Part shown: piece by piece, positions 1-19,037 of the stretch
Numbering within the stretch: the first letter of the stretch is position 1
Layout of the letters: each line of letters starts with the position of its first letter
NCBI RefSeq assembly: GCF_024055795.1
Contig: NZ_JAMXMY010000040.1
Span: 1-32,062 of the forward strand
DNA: 32,062 bases
Direction: 5' to 3'
Origin: Actinoallomurus purpureus
GTDB lineage: Bacteria; Actinomycetota; Actinomycetes; Streptosporangiales; Streptosporangiaceae
Made by a program: the position numbers and the translations under genes
The notes under the pieces: model-generated
What the model saw: the letters and a program-made list of their open reading frames with translations, nothing else
What the model was told of the DNA's origin: nothing
Databases searched by the model: none

Positions 1-79
1 TTGGCGTGAACACCACGTCGACCCAGTAGTTGGTGGACTGATAGCTCCCCGTGGGGAACGTGTTCGTGGCGCCGTAGGA
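1..79 (-). other. Open reading frame continuing past the premature stop of the DUF4082 protein
   Basis: Read on the minus strand, the bases after the TAG at 80-82 stay in the same frame to the window edge. They encode the expected end of a DUF4082 module (S-Y-G-A-T-N-T-F-P-T-G, then a Y-W-V-D-V-V-F-T-P ending). The sister modules in this window carry the same ending, where Tyr occupies the stop position. The segment is therefore a cut-off tail, not an intergenic region. Whether more modules follow lies outside the window. Confidence 0.75.
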
Positions 80-3046
80 CTACACGCCGTTCCCGCCAGA
101 ATCAGCGCTCGCCGGCGCGGTCAAAGGATCGTTGATGTACGCACTGGTGAAATACGGCCGCGTCACGGAATAACCCGACGACGTGAAATAAGACGCGACA
201 TACGTAGTATTCGCCGTCACCGCCACCGGGGTGGAGAAATTCACCTGCTGCCAGCCCGACGCCGACTCACCGGTGAAGGTCGCACTCGCCAGCAACGTCC
301 CGCTCGAAGTCCACAGACTTCCCACGTGGGTCCCCGTGTTCAGCGAACCCTTGTAGAACCGGATCCCAGTGATGAAACCGTTCACAGACGCCGTGAACTT
401 CACCCCGAGGGTAACCGGCTGAGCATCGGGATGCGACTGAACGGCTGGAACAGCCGTGGGGTCCCACAGGGTGTACGTTGGCGTGAACACCACATCGACC
501 CAGTAGTTGGAGGACTGGTAGGTCCCTGTGGGGAACGTGCTCGCGGTGCCGTAGGAATACACGCCGTTCCCGCCAGAATCAGCGCTCGCCGGCGCGGTCA
601 AAGGGTAGTTATTATATGGATTTGTGAAGTACGGCCGCGAAAAGGCATAATGGCCCGGCGTATGATAAGACGCGACATAGGTGGTGTTCACACTGACTGC
701 CACCGGGGCAGAGAAATTCACCTGTTGCCAGCCGCTTGCTGTTTCATTGGTAAAGGTTGCTTCCGCGAGTAGCGTCCCGGTAGAACTCCATAGATGGCCG
801 ACGTGCGTCCCCGTGTTGGCCGTGCCCTTGTAGAACCTGATTCCGGCGATTTGGCCAGAGGCGGTGGCCTTGAACTTCACCCCTACTTCTACGGACTGGG
901 TATCGTCGCTCGCCTCCACGTCCGGGACAGTCGTCGACGACCAAAGCGTGCAACATGTTCCGCCTACGGTCACATTCACTGTGGTCGGATTCGTCTGAAC
1001 GTTGCCGATATCATCGACTGCGCGAACCCTGATCGTCACGGGTCCAGCGCTGGTGGGCGTCCATTGGTACTGCCAGGCACTTCGGCCGGTCGCGTGGAAC
1101 CATCGTGTGCCGTCGAACGAGACTTCCACACCCCCGACGACGCCGCCCCCGGTATCGCTGGCCGTTCCCTGAATAGTGACCACCCTTCCCGTGGCCACAC
1201 CGGCACCGCTCGACGGATTGGTGATCGTTGACGTCGGTGGAGACGTGTCCGTCGACTGGGTCGCCGGCACCAGGCCGGGCTGGAGGCTGGCCGGCTGAGT
1301 GCCCATGTCAGCGAAGAGGTTGACCGTCGCCTGCTGCATATTGATGTCCGTGGGGCTTCCGGCCCGATCGTGAACTGCGTCGAGCCCCCACGCCCACTGG
1401 GTGGTCCCCGCTCCGAAGACGAGCGCTCCGCTGGAAGCCCGGTAAAGCACCAGGCTGTGTGTGGCGGTCCCAGCGCCGTATAGGCCCCCGTAGTCGAGCA
1501 GGAATTGGGTGCTCGTGGTCACGGTCGTGCTCGAGAACCTGACCAGTCCGGGCGGTGCGGTTGCGTCGTCGGGAGCCTCGTCCCACTCGTACCCCAGCGT
1601 TCCTGCGGGAAAGGTCGCCGTCTGGCCGGGAGTAAGATTGGCGATCGACGTGTTGCGCCACAACCGCATGTCGCTGAACGCAGCGGGGACCTTTATCGAA
1701 TCGTTGGCGACCTGGTTGACCATATACAGCGTGCCTGTCACTGCGTTCTCCGGTCGCCCTCCGTCCGCCGGCGGGGAGTAACGCGGATCTCGCCAGGTCC
1801 CCGTCCACGTCGGAGTCGGATCGAGCCTCGTGCCGTTCGCGAGCGTCTCCTTGTAGCAGACGAGTGTCCTGAACGAGGTGCCGTCCGCGATGCTGTTCTC
1901 CCACCTGGTCTTCCAGAACATCTCGTTTCCGGAGAAGAAGGTGAGGTTCACGCCGTTGCCGCGAGCGTTCTCCACGTTGTTCCGCATCTCGTTGGACCAG
2001 TATTCGTCATGGCCGGAGGACATGAAGACCTTGTGTTCGAGAATCTCCGCTCCCCGCATGGCGGTGTCCACGTCGGTGGTGTAACTCACGTCGAACGCGT
2101 TCGCCTCGAGCCATCTGACCATCGGATATTCGGAATCGAAGAACCAGCTGTACACAGAGCTTTCCCGGGTGTTGAACGGACGGTTGTAGCTCACCTTGAA
2201 CGCCCGGCCCGCCGGAGCACCTGTATAGAGGCTGTTGCCGCCGTAGGAGTTGTACGCCTGCCACGTGGCGTCAGACGTCTGAACCAGAAAATCCGAGTGA
2301 CGTGTGTCGTCCCTGACGACGAAGATCATCTGGCTGGCCTCACCGGTCACATCATCACGCACCAGCTTCGCGATGTAGACGCCGGAGACCGCGCTCGCCG
2401 GCACAGCCCATGAAGCCGATACCGCCCAGTTGCCACAGTCGATCAGGCCAGTCGTGCTGTCGGTCAGACAAGCCGGCTGCGTCTGCGGCAGGGCGGCGGA
2501 CGGCTGAACCGTAGCGATCAGGCGCGCTCCCTGGCCGCTGTAGTAGCCCATGCGATAGATGTCCAGGTGATAGGCGGTCGCGGGAGTCAGCACCTTGAAT
2601 TGTACGGTCTCCCCGTGGTTGACACTAATTTGAGTGGCATATCCCTGGATATTTGGGGAACCTGCTCCAGAGATATCCCATTGGCTGGGCGGGTTGCCAG
2701 GAAGGCTGTTCTCGATGCAAATGACTGACGTCGGCGGGCACGCGGCCCTACGAGCGCGGACCCCGCTCTTGGCAATTCGGCGGTTTCTCGGGGGTGGTGC
2801 GAGGGCTGAGCGCATGTCGGCGGACATGGGGACGGGTGCGTTTCTCGACGATGCTGCCGGTGGTGTCTGCGAACCACTGCCGACCTGAGGGACGTGCTCA
2901 GCAGTCTTAGGGGTGGACGCGTGCGAAGGACTGGAAACGCCCAGGAGCAGACAGAGCAGGACGACCAGACTGTTCCCGCAAGCGATCCAGAGCCTCAGGC
3001 GCTGCCCGCGCCTGTTAGCACCGTCTCGCACCTTCGATCTGCTCAA
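80..3046 (-). CDS. Secreted N,N-dimethylformamidase-beta-like protein with Ig-like and two DUF4082 domains, truncated by a nonsense codon
   Basis: The protein has 988 residues. A signal peptide lies at about 1-43 (hydrophobic LWIACGNSLVVLLCLLLG, then S-P-S-H-A). A domain of the N,N-dimethylformamidase beta-subunit-like family follows at about 105-595; it includes the family-type stretches H-L-D-I-Y-R-M-G-Y-Y and F-F-S-G-N-E-M-F-W. A bacterial Ig-like domain lies at about 598-695, and DUF4082 modules start near 700 and 858. The start is TTG, preceded by AAGGA at 8-nt spacing; an ATG 5 nt upstream meets TGA after two codons. DUF4082 modules recur in actinobacterial secreted proteins and are probably carbohydrate- or wall-binding. 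Catalysis by the first domain is unproven here, and a subunit partner is not visible. The last module is cut by a TAG where both intact paralogous modules have Tyr. An IS256 remnant lies immediately upstream, so its promoter may be altered. Confidence 0.85.
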   Translation of the reverse strand: MSRSKVRDGANRRGQRLRLWIACGNSLVVLLCLLLGVSSPSHASTPKTAEHVPQVGSGSQTPPAASSRNAPVPMSADMRSALAPPPRNRRIAKSGVRARRAACPPTSVICIENSLPGNPPSQWDISGAGSPNIQGYATQISVNHGETVQFKVLTPATAYHLDIYRMGYYSGQGARLIATVQPSAALPQTQPACLTDSTTGLIDCGNWAVSASWAVPASAVSGVYIAKLVRDDVTGEASQMIFVVRDDTRHSDFLVQTSDATWQAYNSYGGNSLYTGAPAGRAFKVSYNRPFNTRESSVYSWFFDSEYPMVRWLEANAFDVSYTTDVDTAMRGAEILEHKVFMSSGHDEYWSNEMRNNVENARGNGVNLTFFSGNEMFWKTRWENSIADGTSFRTLVCYKETLANGTRLDPTPTWTGTWRDPRYSPPADGGRPENAVTGTLYMVNQVANDSIKVPAAFSDMRLWRNTSIANLTPGQTATFPAGTLGYEWDEAPDDATAPPGLVRFSSTTVTTSTQFLLDYGGLYGAGTATHSLVLYRASSGALVFGAGTTQWAWGLDAVHDRAGSPTDINMQQATVNLFADMGTQPASLQPGLVPATQSTDTSPPTSTITNPSSGAGVATGRVVTIQGTASDTGGGVVGGVEVSFDGTRWFHATGRSAWQYQWTPTSAGPVTIRVRAVDDIGNVQTNPTTVNVTVGGTCCTLWSSTTVPDVEASDDTQSVEVGVKFKATASGQIAGIRFYKGTANTGTHVGHLWSSTGTLLAEATFTNETASGWQQVNFSAPVAVSVNTTYVASYHTPGHYAFSRPYFTNPYNNYPLTAPASADSGGNGVYSYGTASTFPTGTYQSSNYWVDVVFTPTYTLWDPTAVPAVQSHPDAQPVTLGVKFTASVNGFITGIRFYKGSLNTGTHVGSLWTSSGTLLASATFTGESASGWQQVNFSTPVAVTANTTYVASYFTSSGYSVTRPYFTSAYINDPLTAPASADSGGNGV

Positions 3047-3057
3047 TTCATCAGTCC

Positions 3058-3293
3058 TTGGTCACGTCCAGCGGAGTGGTGTATGAGTCGGCCTCCGCGT
3101 GATCCGTTGTTGCAGGTTAATCGGCGATTGCTTGTTGGGTGGTGTTCTCGCCCGGTGGGTCGCCGCTGATCACGCGGAGAAGGGCTTTGGCGAGGAATTC
3201 TATGCCCATGTAGCGGCGGACTTCAGCCCATTCGTCGGTTTGTTCCATCAGGACCGCGCCGACCAGGCGGATGATCCTTCAGACAGTCCCAGG
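3058..3293 (-). mobile_element. Remnant of an IS256-family insertion sequence (transposase C-terminus plus probable right end)
   Basis: The block holds the transposase tail (3117-3293). Past its stop, at 3061-3090, a stretch on the minus strand contains TACACCACT followed by GGACGTGACC, which resembles the terminal inverted repeats I recall from actinobacterial IS256-type elements. The opposite end and most of the transposase are absent, so it cannot move on its own. One side abuts the end of the inverted-repeat arm of the DUF3494 gene (3294). The other stops about 10 bp before the ribosome binding site of the dimethylformamidase-like gene. Exact ends are inferred, because no target duplication is visible. 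Confidence 0.65.
3117..3293 (-). pseudogene. IS256-family (mutator) transposase, C-terminal fragment
   Basis: The minus-strand frame ending at TAA 3117-3119 reads I-I-R-L-V-G-A-V-L-M-E-Q, then T-D-E-W-A-E-V-R-R-Y-M-G-I-E. This matches the characteristic C-terminal signature of IS256/mutator transposases (R-L-V-G-A-V-L-x-E-Q-x-D-E-W). Only about 52 codons of an enzyme of roughly 400 residues remain, so the DDE catalytic core is gone. Upstream, CTG GGA CTG (L-G-L) fits the preceding family sequence in a different frame, which suggests a small indel. The fragment is read in the same direction as the DUF3494 gene and lies just beyond its stop; that gene's final P-G-T-V and stop codon appear to come from this IS DNA. 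Confidence 0.8.
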
Positions 3294-4358
3294 AGATACG
3301 GTTTGGTTGATTGTGGGTGAGGTGCTTGGGGCCCAGTGGATGGGTTGTTCTCCGTCGAAGGTGGTTCCACCGAGGTAGACGGCGGTGATGCGGTGTTGGC
3401 CTGCGGAGAGGGTGGAGGTGGTGAAGGTGGCGGGTTGGGTGGTGCTGCGGAAGAAGTCGGTGCCGATGACGGTGTTGCCGTCTTTGAAGGCGACGTTTCC
3501 TTGAGGGGTGAGGGTTCCGCTGGTTTGCTGGACGGTCGCGGTGAAGGTGACGGGTTCTCCGCTTCTGGCGGTGTTGTTGTTGGAGGTGACCGTGGTGGTC
3601 GTCGGGCGGTCGTCGGGAAGTTGGATGAGGGTGGGGGGCTGGCTGGTGACGCCGGTGATGGTAATGGCGTTGTTGAGGGTGAACAAGCGGCCGATGGGAT
3701 TGGCTCGGCTGTTGACATTGATGGCGTTGGCGGCGATGAGGTTGCCGCGGAAGGTGGTGAAGGTGTCGAGCGTGGCGGAGTCGCTGATCACCCAGTAGAG
3801 GTTGTTGGCTTGAGCGCCTCCGGTAAGGGTGATGGTGCTGGACATGGCGGCGGTCAGGGTGGCGGCTTTGAAGACGAAGATGGCGTCGGGGTTGGCTTGG
3901 GCGTCCAGGGTGAGGGTTCCGTTGATCTGGAAGTTGCCGGTGGTGGAGTCGTAGACGCCGGGGGTTCTGGTGGTGTTGCCCAGTTCTGCGGGCAAGGTGG
4001 CATCCGGCGTCATTGCTGTGAGGTTGTTGTAGGCGGTCACGACGTCGGCTTTGGCGTTGGCCGCGGTGGAGTCGCCGGCGTGGGTGGTGCCGTTGATGGT
4101 GCCGGGCGGGAAGCCGGTGACGGTAGAGCCGGGGCTCACCCCGAGGTCTCCGATGACCCGGGTGAGATTGGTGTTGGTGACGCTTGATCCCGCCAGGACC
4201 GCGAACGGCGCCGCATTACCAATACTCACCGACTGAGCCTTGAAGACGTTGCTCTGTGTTCCGCTGGCCACGGTCGTGACAAGAAGGGCCGCCAGAGGCG
4301 CTGCCAACGAGATGCGCGCCTTCAATGCAAGCAGTGTACAGAAACCAGTAAATGCCAT
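3279..4358 (-). CDS. Secreted ice-binding-like (DUF3494) protein with one Ig-like domain, C-terminally shortened
   Basis: The protein has 359 residues. The ATG at 4356-4358 has GGAG 6 nt upstream. A hydrophobic signal segment runs from about residue 5 to 33, and the mature part starts near A-Q-S-V-S. DUF3494 (ice-binding-like beta-solenoid) covers about 42-245, including G-D-L-G-V-S-P-G and N-N-L-Y-W-V-I-S-D. An Ig-like repeat domain of the Big_3_5 type follows at about 255-350. DUF3494 proteins bind ice in cold-adapted microbes but are also common as surface adhesins; the role here is not known. The DUF3494+Ig part is almost identical to the divergent gene at 4725-6899, which continues into two DUF4082 modules. 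Here the sequence instead runs into IS256 remnant DNA and stops after P-G-T-V. It may be a functional short form or a truncated copy. Confidence 0.88.
   Translation of the reverse strand: MAFTGFCTLLALKARISLAAPLAALLVTTVASGTQSNVFKAQSVSIGNAAPFAVLAGSSVTNTNLTRVIGDLGVSPGSTVTGFPPGTINGTTHAGDSTAANAKADVVTAYNNLTAMTPDATLPAELGNTTRTPGVYDSTTGNFQINGTLTLDAQANPDAIFVFKAATLTAAMSSTITLTGGAQANNLYWVISDSATLDTFTTFRGNLIAANAINVNSRANPIGRLFTLNNAITITGVTSQPPTLIQLPDDRPTTTTVTSNNNTARSGEPVTFTATVQQTSGTLTPQGNVAFKDGNTVIGTDFFRSTTQPATFTTSTLSAGQHRITAVYLGGTTFDGEQPIHWAPSTSPTINQTVSPGTV
3294..4240. repeat. Left arm of a 947-bp inverted repeat (DUF3494-Ig coding)
   Basis: Pairing position x with 9227-x aligns this arm with 4987-5933 without any gap. 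By eye I count 10 mismatches in 947 bp (about 99% identity). Four of them change the protein (D/N, T/S, V/A, R/H). Both ends are sharp. On the inner side, identity begins at AGGCTCAG, after the signal peptides. On the outer side it ends after CCAAACCGTATCT, where this arm meets IS256 DNA. Confidence 0.95.
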
Positions 4359-4986
4359 AATAGCTCCAGCGACGCCCGAAATGTGTAATCCATTACCGTC
4401 TGGTCAATATGTAAGTTATGTCGCTTGCGTCCTGTGATTCGACACGCCGCGCAGGGTCGTCACTGGCACGCTCAGATCAAGATATCGAGTTAAAACCTCC
4501 AGGCAAGTAAAGCGCATGGACATGGAGGGGTAAGGTTCGCGCTAAAAGCCCAATCAATCGGGGTCTTTGTTGATCAAATAAAACGCGCACTTGCTACCGT
4601 TCTAAGCGCACACATCGTCGCATGTCGTGACGGCTCACAGTCGAGCGCTGACATTCGCGCGATATTTCACGCCCTGATCGTGGCTGTGCGAGCTCCGGCA
4701 CGAGGCTTTGAGGAGTTGTGTCACATGTCGATGTTCCGTCGCAACGCATCCGATGACGCGGTCGGCTCGACCGCGCTGGAGCGTGGGGTGAATGCTCAGC
4801 AGCGTCCAGGAACTCCGGAACCAGCAGCGAACCGCAGTAGCGTACGCCCCTGGAGGAAGTGCGCGACCGTGGACGACGCTGGAGGCCGGCGTAGCTCACG
4901 AAGCATCGCTCGTTCCTGGTTGTCCGCCGCGCTGACGGCCGTTCTCCCGATGGGTGGTGCCATCGTCATGACACCGAGAAGTGCTC
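4241..4986. other. Unique 746-bp spacer between the inverted arms, holding both 5' ends
   Basis: The spacer carries the start codons, ribosome binding sites, different signal peptides and the whole divergent intergenic region of the two DUF3494 genes. Homologous recombination between the arms would flip exactly this piece. Each signal peptide and promoter would then be joined in frame to the other gene's body, because the arms align without indels and the frame is the same at both junctions. No site-specific recombinase gene is visible nearby, so any flipping would have to use general recombination. Confidence 0.6.
4359..4724. promoter_or_regulatory. Divergent intergenic region of the two DUF3494 genes
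   Basis: These 366 bp are clearly more AT-rich than the flanking genes (for example around 4381-4425 and 4490-4600), as expected for promoters. A possible plus-strand promoter is TTGATC at 4570-4575 with TACCGT at 4595-4600; the 19-bp spacer is longer than ideal. TTGATCAA at 4570-4577 is a small palindrome. On the minus strand a TTGACC lies at about 4398-4403 without a well-spaced -10. I see no gene or RNA structure here. Confidence 0.4.
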
Positions 4987-6899
4987 AGGCTCAGTCGGTG
5001 AGTATTGGTAATGCGGCGCCGTTCGCGGTCCTGGCGGGATCAAGCGTCACCAACACCAATCTCACCCGGGTCATCGGAGACCTCGGGGTGAGCCCCGGCT
5101 CTACCGTCACCGGCTTCCCGCCCGGCACCATCAACGGCACCACCCACGCCGGCGACTCCACCGCGGCCAACGCCAAAGCCGACGTCGTGACCGCCTACAA
5201 CAACCTCACAGCAATGACGCCGGACGCCACCTTGCCCGCAGAACTGGGCAACACCACCAGAACCCCCGGCGTTTACAACTCCACCACCGGCAACTTCCAG
5301 ATCAACGGAACCCTCACCCTGGACGCCCAAGCCAACCCCGACGCCATCTTCGTCTTCAAAGCCGCCACCCTGACCGCCGCCATGTCCAGCACCATCACCC
5401 TTACCGGAGGCGCTCAAGCCAACAACCTCTACTGGGTGATCAGCGACTCCGCCACGCTCGACACCTTCAGCACCTTCCGCGGCAACCTCATCGCCGCCAA
5501 CGCCATCAATGTCAACAGCCGAGCCAACCCCATCGGCCGCCTGTTCACCCTCAACAACGCCATCACCATCACCGGCGCCACCAGCCAGCCCCCCACCCTC
5601 ATCCAACTCCCCGACGACCGCCCGACGACCACCACGGTCACCTCCAACAACAACACCGCCAGAAGCGGAGAACCCGTCACCTTCACCGCGACCGTCCAGC
5701 AAACCAGCGGAACCCTCACCCCTCAAGGAAACGTCGCCTTCAAAGACGGCAACACCGTCATCGGCACCGACTTCTTCCACAGCACCACCCAACCCGCCAC
5801 CTTCACCACCTCCACCCTCTCCGCAGGCCAACACCGCATCACCGCCGTCTACCTCGGTGGAACCACCTTCGACGGAGAACAACCCATCCACTGGGCCCCA
5901 AGCACCTCACCCACAATCAACCAAACCGTATCTACTAGTTTGTGGAGAAGTACCGACGTTCCGGATGTCCCGTCTCACAGCGATGCGTTGGCGGTCACAC
6001 TGGGTGTCAAGTTCACGGCATCGACGAGCGGGACCGTGACAGGTATCCGGTTCTACAAAGGTTCACTGAACACCGGAACTCACGTGGGAAGTCTGTGGAG
6101 TGCGAGCGGGACGCTGCTGGCGAATGCGACCTTCACCGGCGAGTCGGCGTCGGGCTGGCAGCAAGTGAACTTCACGGCACCGGTGGTGGTGACGGCGAAT
6201 ACTACGTATGTCGCGTCTTATTTCACGTCGTCGGGTCATTATTCTGTGACGCGGCCGTATTTCACCAGTCCGTACACCAACGGTCCTTTGACCGCGCCGG
6301 CGAGCGCTGATTCCGGTGGGAACGGCGTGTACGCCTACGGCGCCACGAACACGTTCCCCACGGGGACCTTCCAGTCCACCAACTACTGGGTCGACGTGGT
6401 GTTCACGCCGGCGTCCAACCTGTGGGACAACACGGCTGTTCCCGCCGTCCAGTCGCAACCCGATACTCAGCCGATCACCCTCGGGGTGAAGTTCACGGCG
6501 TCTGCGAACGGTTTCATCAGTGGTATCCGGTTCTACAAGGGTTCGTCGAACACGGGGACTCACGTGGGAAGTTTGTGGAGCGCGAGCGGGACGTTGCTGG
6601 CGAGCGTCACCTTTATCAATGAAACAGCAAGCGGCTGGCAACAGATGAACTTCTCCACCCCGGTGGCGGTGACGGCGAATACTACGTATGTCGCATCTTA
6701 TTTCACGTCGTCGGGTAATTATTCTGTGACGCGGTCGTATTTCACCAGTGCGTACACCAACGGTCCTTTGACCGCGCCGGCGAGCGCTGATTCCGGCGGG
6801 AACGGCGTGTATTCCTACGGCGCCACGAACACATTCCCCACGGGGACCTTCCAGTCCACCAACTACTGGGTCGACGTGGTGTACGAAGAATCGAGCTAG
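4725..6899 (+). CDS. Secreted ice-binding-like (DUF3494) protein with Ig-like and two DUF4082 domains
   Basis: The preferred ATG at 4725 has GAGGAG 9 nt upstream and gives 724 residues; a GTG at 4680 in the same frame lacks such a site. The N-terminus is unusually long, about 60 mostly polar residues before a hydrophobic segment (W-L-S-A-A-L-T-A-V-L-P) and A-Q-A, so the true start could lie further in. DUF3494 covers about 88-290, the Ig-like domain about 298-402, and DUF4082 modules about 405-562 and 563-724. It is a likely surface or wall-associated adhesin with DUF4082 modules that may bind polymer; this role is inferred. The first half is a near-exact inverted copy of the gene at 3279-4358. 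The DUF4082 modules resemble those of the gene at 80-3046 as a mosaic. It ends 8 bp before the convergent response regulator. Confidence 0.9.
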   Translation: MSMFRRNASDDAVGSTALERGVNAQQRPGTPEPAANRSSVRPWRKCATVDDAGGRRSSRSIARSWLSAALTAVLPMGGAIVMTPRSAQAQSVSIGNAAPFAVLAGSSVTNTNLTRVIGDLGVSPGSTVTGFPPGTINGTTHAGDSTAANAKADVVTAYNNLTAMTPDATLPAELGNTTRTPGVYNSTTGNFQINGTLTLDAQANPDAIFVFKAATLTAAMSSTITLTGGAQANNLYWVISDSATLDTFSTFRGNLIAANAINVNSRANPIGRLFTLNNAITITGATSQPPTLIQLPDDRPTTTTVTSNNNTARSGEPVTFTATVQQTSGTLTPQGNVAFKDGNTVIGTDFFHSTTQPATFTTSTLSAGQHRITAVYLGGTTFDGEQPIHWAPSTSPTINQTVSTSLWRSTDVPDVPSHSDALAVTLGVKFTASTSGTVTGIRFYKGSLNTGTHVGSLWSASGTLLANATFTGESASGWQQVNFTAPVVVTANTTYVASYFTSSGHYSVTRPYFTSPYTNGPLTAPASADSGGNGVYAYGATNTFPTGTFQSTNYWVDVVFTPASNLWDNTAVPAVQSQPDTQPITLGVKFTASANGFISGIRFYKGSSNTGTHVGSLWSASGTLLASVTFINETASGWQQMNFSTPVAVTANTTYVASYFTSSGNYSVTRSYFTSAYTNGPLTAPASADSGGNGVYSYGATNTFPTGTFQSTNYWVDVVYEESS
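4987..5933. repeat. Right arm of the 947-bp inverted repeat (DUF3494-Ig coding)
   Basis: This is the partner of 3294-4240, with 10 mismatches and no indels by eye. Five of the ten fall in about 65 bp (5528-5591, with a further one at 5609), while long stretches such as 5621-5777 have none. That uneven distribution fits partial gene conversion. Beyond 5933 this arm continues into the DUF4082 modules and is therefore the more complete copy. Confidence 0.95.
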
Positions 6900-6907
6900 G
6901 CGCGCGG

Positions 6908-7570
6908 TCAGTGGGCGCGCCAGTGGTACTGGTGTTCGGGGCGGCCCGTGGTGCCGTACCTCAGGGTGACGTGCACCCGTCCCGCCTGGGCGAGTGAGGC
7001 CAGGTAACGCTGGGCGGTCGCCCGGGAGATGCCGACCTCGTCGGAGACCTCGGCGGCCGACCGCGGCTCGCCGGCCCGCCGCAGGGCCTCGGCGACGAGC
7101 CGCCCGGTGACCGAGGACTGTCCCCTGGCGGGCCGGGGCTCGGTGCGCGGCGCGGCGTGCAGGGCCCGGACGGCGCGGTCCACGTCGGCCTGGGTGAGCT
7201 GCTCCCCGGCCGTCATGAGGTGCTCGCGGTAGCGGGCGTAGGCCTGCAGCCGCCGGCCCAGCTCCTGCGCGGTGAACGGTTTGATCAGGTAGTGCAGCGC
7301 GCCGTGGGAGAAGGCGGTGCGGACCGAGTCGGGATCGGTCGCTGCGGTGGCCATGATGACGTCGGCGGTCAGCTCGGGCAGCAGGGACAGTCCGGACTCG
7401 TCGGGCAGGTAGACGTCGAGGAGCACCAGGTCGACCTCTGCCGCGCCGGCCCGCGCGTCGGCGGCGGTGTGGGCCCGCCCCGCCACGCGGAAGCCGGAGA
7501 CGAGTTCGACGAACCCGGCGTGGATCTGCGCCACCCGGAAGTCGTCGTCGACGACCAGCACATCGATCAT
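6908..7570 (-). CDS. CitB/DcuR-family response regulator
   Basis: The protein has 220 residues. The receiver domain covers about 1-120, with the acidic cluster D8-D10, phosphoacceptor D52 (in V-L-L-D-V-Y-L-P-D) and K97 in L-I-K-P-F. A helix-turn-helix lies at about 165-205 (A-A-E-V-S-D-E-V-G-I-S-R-A-T-A-Q-R-Y-L). The architecture is that of CitB/DpiA/DcuR regulators, which control organic acid uptake and use. Its ATG overlaps the end of the histidine kinase gene by 4 bp (ATGA), so the two are translationally coupled. The divergent ABC importer is the most likely target. No diagnostic effector can be read from the sequence. Confidence 0.93.
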   Translation of the reverse strand: MIDVLVVDDDFRVAQIHAGFVELVSGFRVAGRAHTAADARAGAAEVDLVLLDVYLPDESGLSLLPELTADVIMATAATDPDSVRTAFSHGALHYLIKPFTAQELGRRLQAYARYREHLMTAGEQLTQADVDRAVRALHAAPRTEPRPARGQSSVTGRLVAEALRRAGEPRSAAEVSDEVGISRATAQRYLASLAQAGRVHVTLRYGTTGRPEHQYHWRAH

Positions 7571-18257: not shown

Positions 18258-19037
18258 ATGCGCTCATTCACGATCACCGCACTCATCGGCACGGGCCTGC
18301 TCGGCCTCGCGCCGCAGGCCCAGGCCGCGTCACACGCCCGGCCGGCACACCCGCAACCGGACCGGGGCGCCCAGAAGGCCGCGCACGCCCGGCCCGCCGA
18401 CCCGCAGCCTCAGCCGGACCGGCCCGGCATCCAGACCGCGGTCCACGCGCAGGCTCAGCCGGACCGGCCCGCCGGCCAGCCCGTCGGCCAGACGCTCGGC
18501 CAGAACGCCGTCCACGCGCGCCCGGCCGACCCGCAGCCGGACCGGCCCAACACCCGCGTCATCCATGTTCGGCAGGCCGAATCGCAGCCGGGCCGGCCGG
18601 GCGTCCAGAACGCCGTCCACGTCCGGCCCGTGGACCCGCCGCCTCAGCCTCAGCCGCAGCCGGTCCGGCCGTCGTTCGGCCTGCACATGACCGGCCAGGC
18701 GGCCCACTGGGAGGTGTCGCCGGGCGAGCTCGAGACGGTGCGCTGGACTCTCACCAACACCGGTAACCGGCCGCTGGACCACGTCCAGCTGGTGGCGTCG
18801 ATACCCGCCGGGTGGACCGTCCGGGAGGGACAGGGCTGCGCGCGCCGCGGCGACTACCTCGGCTGCGACCTCGGTGGGCTGGAGCCGGGGCGGAGCGCGG
18901 CCGTCCTCGTGCCGATGGTCGTGGGAGGACAGCCCGGACCCGTGCGGCTGGCCGCATGGTCGCGGGCGACGGCGGGTTCGCTGAGCATTCCGGGACCGAC
19001 GACGTCGTTCCGCGTCGTCGTCACCGGACGCCGGTAG
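18258..19037 (+). CDS. Secreted protein with proline-rich repeats and an extracellular DUF11/NEW3-like beta domain
   Basis: The ATG at 18258 has a strong site (AGGGGGA, about 5 nt away) and gives 259 residues. A signal peptide lies at 1-23 (ends A-Q-A). Residues about 24-140 hold five or so degenerate copies of H-A-R-P-A-D-P-Q-P-D-R-P followed by a short Gln/Val linker, a low-complexity, probably extended wall-spanning stalk. Residues about 142-259 look like a beta-sandwich of the DUF11/NEW3 kind (W-T-L-T-N-T-G-N-R-P-L-D, I-P-A-G-W-T-V, then C-A-R-R-G-D-Y-L-G-C-D-L with two Cys). The function is unknown. No sortase signal or membrane anchor is seen at the C-terminus. A large hairpin follows the stop. 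Confidence 0.8.
   Translation: MRSFTITALIGTGLLGLAPQAQAASHARPAHPQPDRGAQKAAHARPADPQPQPDRPGIQTAVHAQAQPDRPAGQPVGQTLGQNAVHARPADPQPDRPNTRVIHVRQAESQPGRPGVQNAVHVRPVDPPPQPQPQPVRPSFGLHMTGQAAHWEVSPGELETVRWTLTNTGNRPLDHVQLVASIPAGWTVREGQGCARRGDYLGCDLGGLEPGRSAAVLVPMVVGGQPGPVRLAAWSRATAGSLSIPGPTTSFRVVVTGRR

Follow-up and report, generated by a model that had tools for sequence, protein, structure and literature searches.

The gene pair and its neighbours

Near the start of the window, by which we mean the whole stretch of 32,062 nucleotides that was analysed, lie two divergent genes, one short and one long, whose mature parts are inverted copies of each other (Table 1). Pfam finds PF11999 Ice_binding (DUF3494) and PF16640 Big_3_5, an Ig domain, in both proteins, and the PF11999 matches score 157 and 156.6 bits against a curated cut-off of 28.7. 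Only the long protein has PF13313 DUF4082, which matches over two stretches, in agreement with the earlier note on this DNA, which had described one body as short and the other as carrying two DUF4082 modules. The open frame of the long gene begins at GTG 4680, and ATG 4725 is most likely the start, because this ATG is conserved behind GAGGAG (AGGGAG in the relative G167).

Table 1. Positions in the window of the two genes, the inverted repeat and adjoining features.
Feature	Position	Strand	Basis
Neighbouring secreted-type gene: DMFA2_C, Big_7 and DUF4082 (two stretches)	80..3046	-	ORF list, repeat search, Pfam
Short gene, 359 aa: signal peptide 1, DUF3494, Ig (Big_3_5)	3279..4358	-	ORF list, Pfam
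Inverted-repeat arm 1, mature part of short gene	3291..4240	-	repeat search, base-by-base comparison
Spacer, 746 nt: both upstream regions, starts and signal peptides	4241..4986		repeat search
Part coding for signal peptide 1, outside the homogenised tract	4244..4358	-	signal peptide judged by eye
Divergent intergenic region	4359..4724		comparison with relatives
Long gene, 724 aa from ATG 4725: polar N-terminal extension, signal peptide 2, DUF3494, Ig, two DUF4082	4725..6899	+	ORF list, Pfam
Polar extension and signal peptide 2	4725..4983	+	comparison with relatives
Inverted-repeat arm 2, mature DUF3494-Ig of long gene	4987..5936	+	repeat search, base-by-base comparison
Two DUF4082 modules, period 480 nt	5940..6896	+	repeat search, Pfam

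The DUF3494 domain matches the ice-binding proteins of PDB entries 5uyt (E 6.5e-45) and 6eio (E 4.6e-43). These share the domain with the present proteins, which differ in having it joined to an Ig domain and, in the long protein, to DUF4082, and ice binding is putative here. DUF3494 may serve in this setting as a secreted adhesive or polysaccharide-binding head.

Farther out from the repeat, the long gene and the neighbouring gene carry DUF4082 modules that are again inverted copies of each other, 71-94% identical in parts, reaching 94% over about 170 nt. DUF4082-like stretches on two other contigs (G000:C52:218920-219333 and G000:C6:235961-236251) are 92% and 95% identical to window positions 1-480, and the DUF4082 modules may be homogenised across loci too. 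There is an in-frame stop (80-82, minus strand) inside the last DUF4082 module of the neighbouring gene, near the start of the contig, which is either a real stop or an assembly error.

The inverted repeat and its spacer

Compared base by base, the arms are 950 nt each and 98.8% identical, with 11 mismatches and no gaps. A match of that length and identity is far beyond chance and the inverted repeat is real. The earlier note had reported ungapped inverted copies of 947 bp with 10 mismatches around a 746-bp spacer, and this is correct as far as it goes: 10 of the 11 mismatches lie inside 3294-4240 x 4987-5933, and the arms extend a little further. Comparison of 140 nt inside and 90 nt outside the arms showed that similarity is lost abruptly at the boundary of signal peptide and mature part, and again a few codons past the Ig domain. 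The mismatches had also been described as clustered, and here the statistics give little encouragement, as neither the tightest five, which fall within 81 nt (P = 0.055), nor the largest gap between mismatches (P = 0.46) reaches significance.

The spacer occurs once in the genome. It consists of the two 5' ends only, as had been stated, while the statement that it contains both promoters was an inference, and a sigma-70 scan of the spacer found none against 0.4 expected. An Rfam scan of 3000-7000 gave nothing at E <= 1. RNAalifold applied to three intergenic sequences gave 101 pairs, 9 of them with both sides changed in at least one sequence, and a covariation term of -3.07 out of -83 kcal/mol, from which we draw no conclusion on structure. 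About 55 nt of the intergenic region (4577-4631), with no Rfam match, are nearly invariant among the window, Actinoallomurus spadix and G167.

The possibility that a chimeric or collapsed repeat arose in assembly has to be considered, as this is a draft in 52 contigs and the first base of the window, which falls within a DUF4082 module, is also the first of its contig. We find it hardly conceivable, given that the sequences adjoining the arms differ on both sides, that the same pair is present in independent assemblies, one of them on a 3.1-Mb contig, and that mismatches are derived in both copies: of nine polarised with A. spadix as outgroup (from a table read by eye), six are derived in the short copy and three in the long.

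The same pair in related genomes

We examined 341 genomes of the family. The nearest named relative is A. spadix KCTC 9252 (G005), of the same genus, the sole relative that came from the scan of genome contigs. Its locus is collinear with the window and has the spacer in the same orientation, with window segments 3-2835, 4244-4731 and 4913-6407 all matching in the plus direction. The same back-to-back pair is present in the independent assemblies of A. spadix, G167 (another genus) and G287, so that short and long genes are divergent in all three as in the window genome. When the spacer was searched for in the family, with two candidates scored per genome, strong similarity (E <= 3.5e-70) was confined to the window genome, A. 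spadix and G167, followed by G287 at E 4.3e-7; 53 genomes had a match at E <= 0.001, and beyond those four the matches were short and weaker.

The intergenic region is 80.9% identical to that of A. spadix and 77.7% to that of G167, in the same orientation, and for the part coding for signal peptide 1 the values are 75.7% and 72.3%. Within a genome the identity of the arms falls as low as 83.7%, in G167. The A. spadix short gene (L025:8917-9537) has signal peptide 1 joined directly to the Ig domain and DUF3494 is missing; the simplest reading is that it was lost by deletion, since the G167 short gene has it. The polar extension of the long gene is mostly absent from A. spadix, where it was probably lost, as it is present in G167 and G287 as well as in the window.

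Relationships of the copies

For the phylogenetic analysis, 56 of the 341 genomes had matches at E <= 1e-60, with at most six candidates scored per genome, and adjacent pairs of DUF3494-Ig genes were picked by eye to give 30 genomes. Adjacent pairs with a weaker copy (G213, G150 and G218) were left out, a weaker divergent pair in G006 was treated apart, and the A. spadix short copy, being weaker, was taken from a separate search. The tree has 64 arms, 60 from the 30 pairs and four single ones.

In this tree the two copies are within-genome sisters in all four divergent pairs (support 100/96 for the window, 100/97 for A. spadix, 100/98 for G287 and 98/76 for G167) and in none of the other 26 (25 on the same strand and one convergent). 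A DNA tree of 11 rows again gave the four divergent pairs, with bootstrap values of 99-100. Trees in which the short copies are held together were rejected by AU tests, on DNA with p 4.7e-8 for the window and G167 and 4.5e-66 for all four, and on protein with p 1.7e-4 and 1.9e-27 respectively. The same applies to long copies held together, with p 1.2e-32 for three on DNA and 5.3e-4 for four on protein. The groups tested were chosen after the first tree was known.

Site patterns tell the same story. Counted as concerted:orthologous:crossed, they are 89:2:0 for the window and G167, 150:0:0 for the window and G287, 117:11:6 for G167 and G287, 35:0:0 for the window and A. spadix, and 27:4:3 for A. 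spadix and G167. Taken together, site patterns and AU tests reject a history in which short and long copies form lineages of their own. The copies group by genome, and not with their positional counterparts, in four genomes that belong to two genera.

Raw identities are less clear-cut in two of the genomes. The G167 copies are 78.7% identical as proteins to each other and 78.8-79.0% to the window copies, a tie, and this pair has an SH-aLRT value of only 76 in the 64-arm tree. The A. spadix long protein is 88.1% identical to the window long protein over the full length and 81.5% to its own Ig-only neighbour over the common part; on DNA, the part that the short copy has kept is 89.5% identical within the genome, whereas over that part the A. 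spadix long copy is 86.9-87.1% identical to the window copies.

At synonymous sites the window arms are separated by a dS of 0.025, about a tenth of the 0.27-0.29 that separates them from the long copy of A. spadix, and so the similarity of the arms is unlikely to stem from purifying selection on the protein alone.

Probable gene conversion between the two genes

On these data we consider it very probable that recurrent gene conversion has acted between divergent paralogues, with the upstream regions and signal peptides left outside. These lie outside the homogenised part and have retained their pairing. Gene conversion had been named in the earlier note, in last place, as an ongoing process, on the strength of the mismatch clustering, which proves not to be significant; the trees, AU tests, site patterns and dS now give it strong support.

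Another explanation of the trees is a separate recent duplication of the body of the long gene in each lineage, for which within-genome sisters would be equally expected. In G287, where signal 1 has no clear homology above 10 shuffles, it may have taken place. As a general account it is very improbable, as the window, A. spadix and G167 share, in the same places, a homologous intergenic region and homologous versions of both signal peptides, and similarity is uneven along the arms of G167 and G287. In G167 the DUF3494 half is 89.1% identical within the genome and 83.2-85.0% across to the window, and the Ig half 73.0% and 72.9-78.6%. For both G167 and G287, each with four cross-genome comparisons, the excess leans to the spacer-proximal DUF3494 half, in the same direction in all eight contrasts and with p < 0.05 in six; significance is missed by G167 when set against the comparison of short copies with the window (p 0.19) and by G287 when set against the comparison of long copies with G167 (p 0.054). 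On balance the pattern tends to favour tracts of conversion over new duplications. The window arms are similar throughout, at 98.6 and 99.4% for the two halves. The homogenised part varies by lineage: it is the whole arm in the window, chiefly the half with DUF3494 in G167 and in G287, and the Ig part in A. spadix, where Ig is the only part of the short gene that can be compared.

With regard to mechanism, we suggest that the two genes are old paralogues whose common mature part, DUF3494-Ig, has repeatedly been homogenised by ectopic gene conversion, with RecA the presumed agent. The pairing of signals with bodies would be kept either by non-crossover resolution or by selection, and inversions would be rare by-products. 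The short protein may then be a secreted binding head and the long protein the same head with a DUF4082 tail, under different upstream signals.

The association with inverted geometry needs care. All four homogenised pairs form one clade in the 64-arm tree, so the association is effectively of one origin, and the comparison of four pairs with 0/26 rests on one clade. A fifth divergent DUF3494 pair, of another subfamily, is present in the same genus (G006, L110:5507-7553) and is not homogenised: its arms are 77-78% alike, and the minus copy is 76.4% identical to its neighbour and 95.3% to its counterpart in G004, the other counterpart comparison with G004 giving 79.6%. Inverted geometry alone is therefore insufficient. 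In the same-strand pairs of G253, G149, G283 and G295 the short and long copies fall into one clade of eight rows, not as within-genome sisters, which means that there, as well, the copies underwent older homogenisation or later duplication.

Is the spacer an invertible switch?

The principal proposal of the earlier note was a two-state switch, in which the arms recombine, the 746-nt spacer is inverted and the two bodies thereby exchange upstream region and signal peptide. Such a switch is mechanically possible to judge from the repeat. The arms are long and nearly identical, and at either end they share a reading frame, so that, as had been predicted, a flip would join in frame and two working fusions are possible, leaving the flipped state competent for coding. 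The arms also demonstrably exchange sequence, as site patterns and trees show, and arms that recombine can in principle cross over. There is in addition a precedent in Lactobacillus acidophilus, where, according to PMC7858073, inversion at the slp locus switches S-layer genes.

The relatives speak against it. In all four genomes with the pair the long body carries signal 2, at modest similarity in the case of G287 (55-59% against shuffle maxima of 49-55%), and the short body carries signal 1 in all three in which it is recognisable, namely the window genome, A. spadix and G167. Signal 1 compared with signal 2 of other genomes gives 41-53%, values that come without shuffled controls. Under free flipping, the probability, calculated by hand, of four alike is 0.125 and of three alike 0.25, too high to disprove switching, and constant pairing is what a fixed arrangement would predict. 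Comparison of orientation across relatives, the check that had been proposed, reveals no difference among the window genome, A. spadix, G167 and G287 where it can be judged. Furthermore, with arms down to 83.7% identity in G167 and DUF3494 lost from the A. spadix short copy, the substrate for a switch has not been maintained. Pfam was run on 23 ORFs of the window (113 ORFs of at least 100 aa are listed, most of them overlapping), and none of the 23 matches a recombinase, integrase or transposase. We conclude that a switch of promoter and signal peptide is unlikely and is unsupported by the pairing.

A related idea, which seems doubtful to us, is that one and the same recombination process homogenises the arms and inverts the spacer, and does the latter so frequently that populations are mixed, with upstream regions and export signals traded between the short and the long DUF3494 protein. 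If true it would be a double swap that is free of any recombinase and has both genes active, and the orientation seen in genomes would be merely the favoured one.

Relation to known systems

Inversion between the slpA and slpB genes is driven by homology between the genes, and the mechanism of inversion at the sap locus of Campylobacter fetus involves a single promoter. The L. acidophilus locus resembles the present one in having two related secreted-protein genes together, where inversion would change the one expressed. It differs in that slpB is described as silent and inversion has actually been seen there (PMC7858073), whereas in the present pair each gene has an upstream sequence and a start of its own, and no inverted form has come to light. 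In C. fetus, inversion takes place between the homologous surface-protein genes of the sap locus (PMC5634654), which illustrates how repeats of this kind might operate, but that is a known switching system and the pair discussed here has no support for switching.

Gene conversion finds a closer parallel in the study of Wang and Chen 2018 (PMC6053082), which describes long-lasting concerted evolution of prokaryotic paralogues for 26 genes, mostly of complexes or pathways. The likeness lies in paralogues that are closer than orthologues, at synonymous sites too and recurrently over lineages, and in the weighing of synteny against independent duplication. That study treats homogenisation over full length; here only the common mature part is affected, the proteins are secreted and multidomain, and the orientation is inverted. 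Concerted evolution driven by conversion is thus already known in prokaryotes, and the present case has an inverted and domain-limited anatomy. In open-access articles we found none linking DUF3494 to gene conversion, and in titles and the starts of abstracts of the open-access literature no account of this gene pair.

The locus is a natural example of concerted evolution in which homogenisation is domain-limited and the copies are inverted. With 26 related pairs of the same family for comparison, it can be used to ask which geometry or selection sustains conversion in actinomycetes. It is also a reminder that two divergent gene starts may be flanked by a near-identical inverted repeat without forming a switch, and that relatives should be compared first.

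Other observations

The DMFA2_C gene is present at 13 of the 30 loci (in stretches of unequal length), and the DMFA2_C, short and long genes may work together. It adjoins the short gene in the window and in A. spadix (L025) and the long gene in G167 (L060), the pair being inverted as a block relative to DMFA2_C. Elsewhere in the window, at 18306-18643, there are imperfect repeats of 45-53 nt in a gene of 288 aa with an NPCBM-associated domain.
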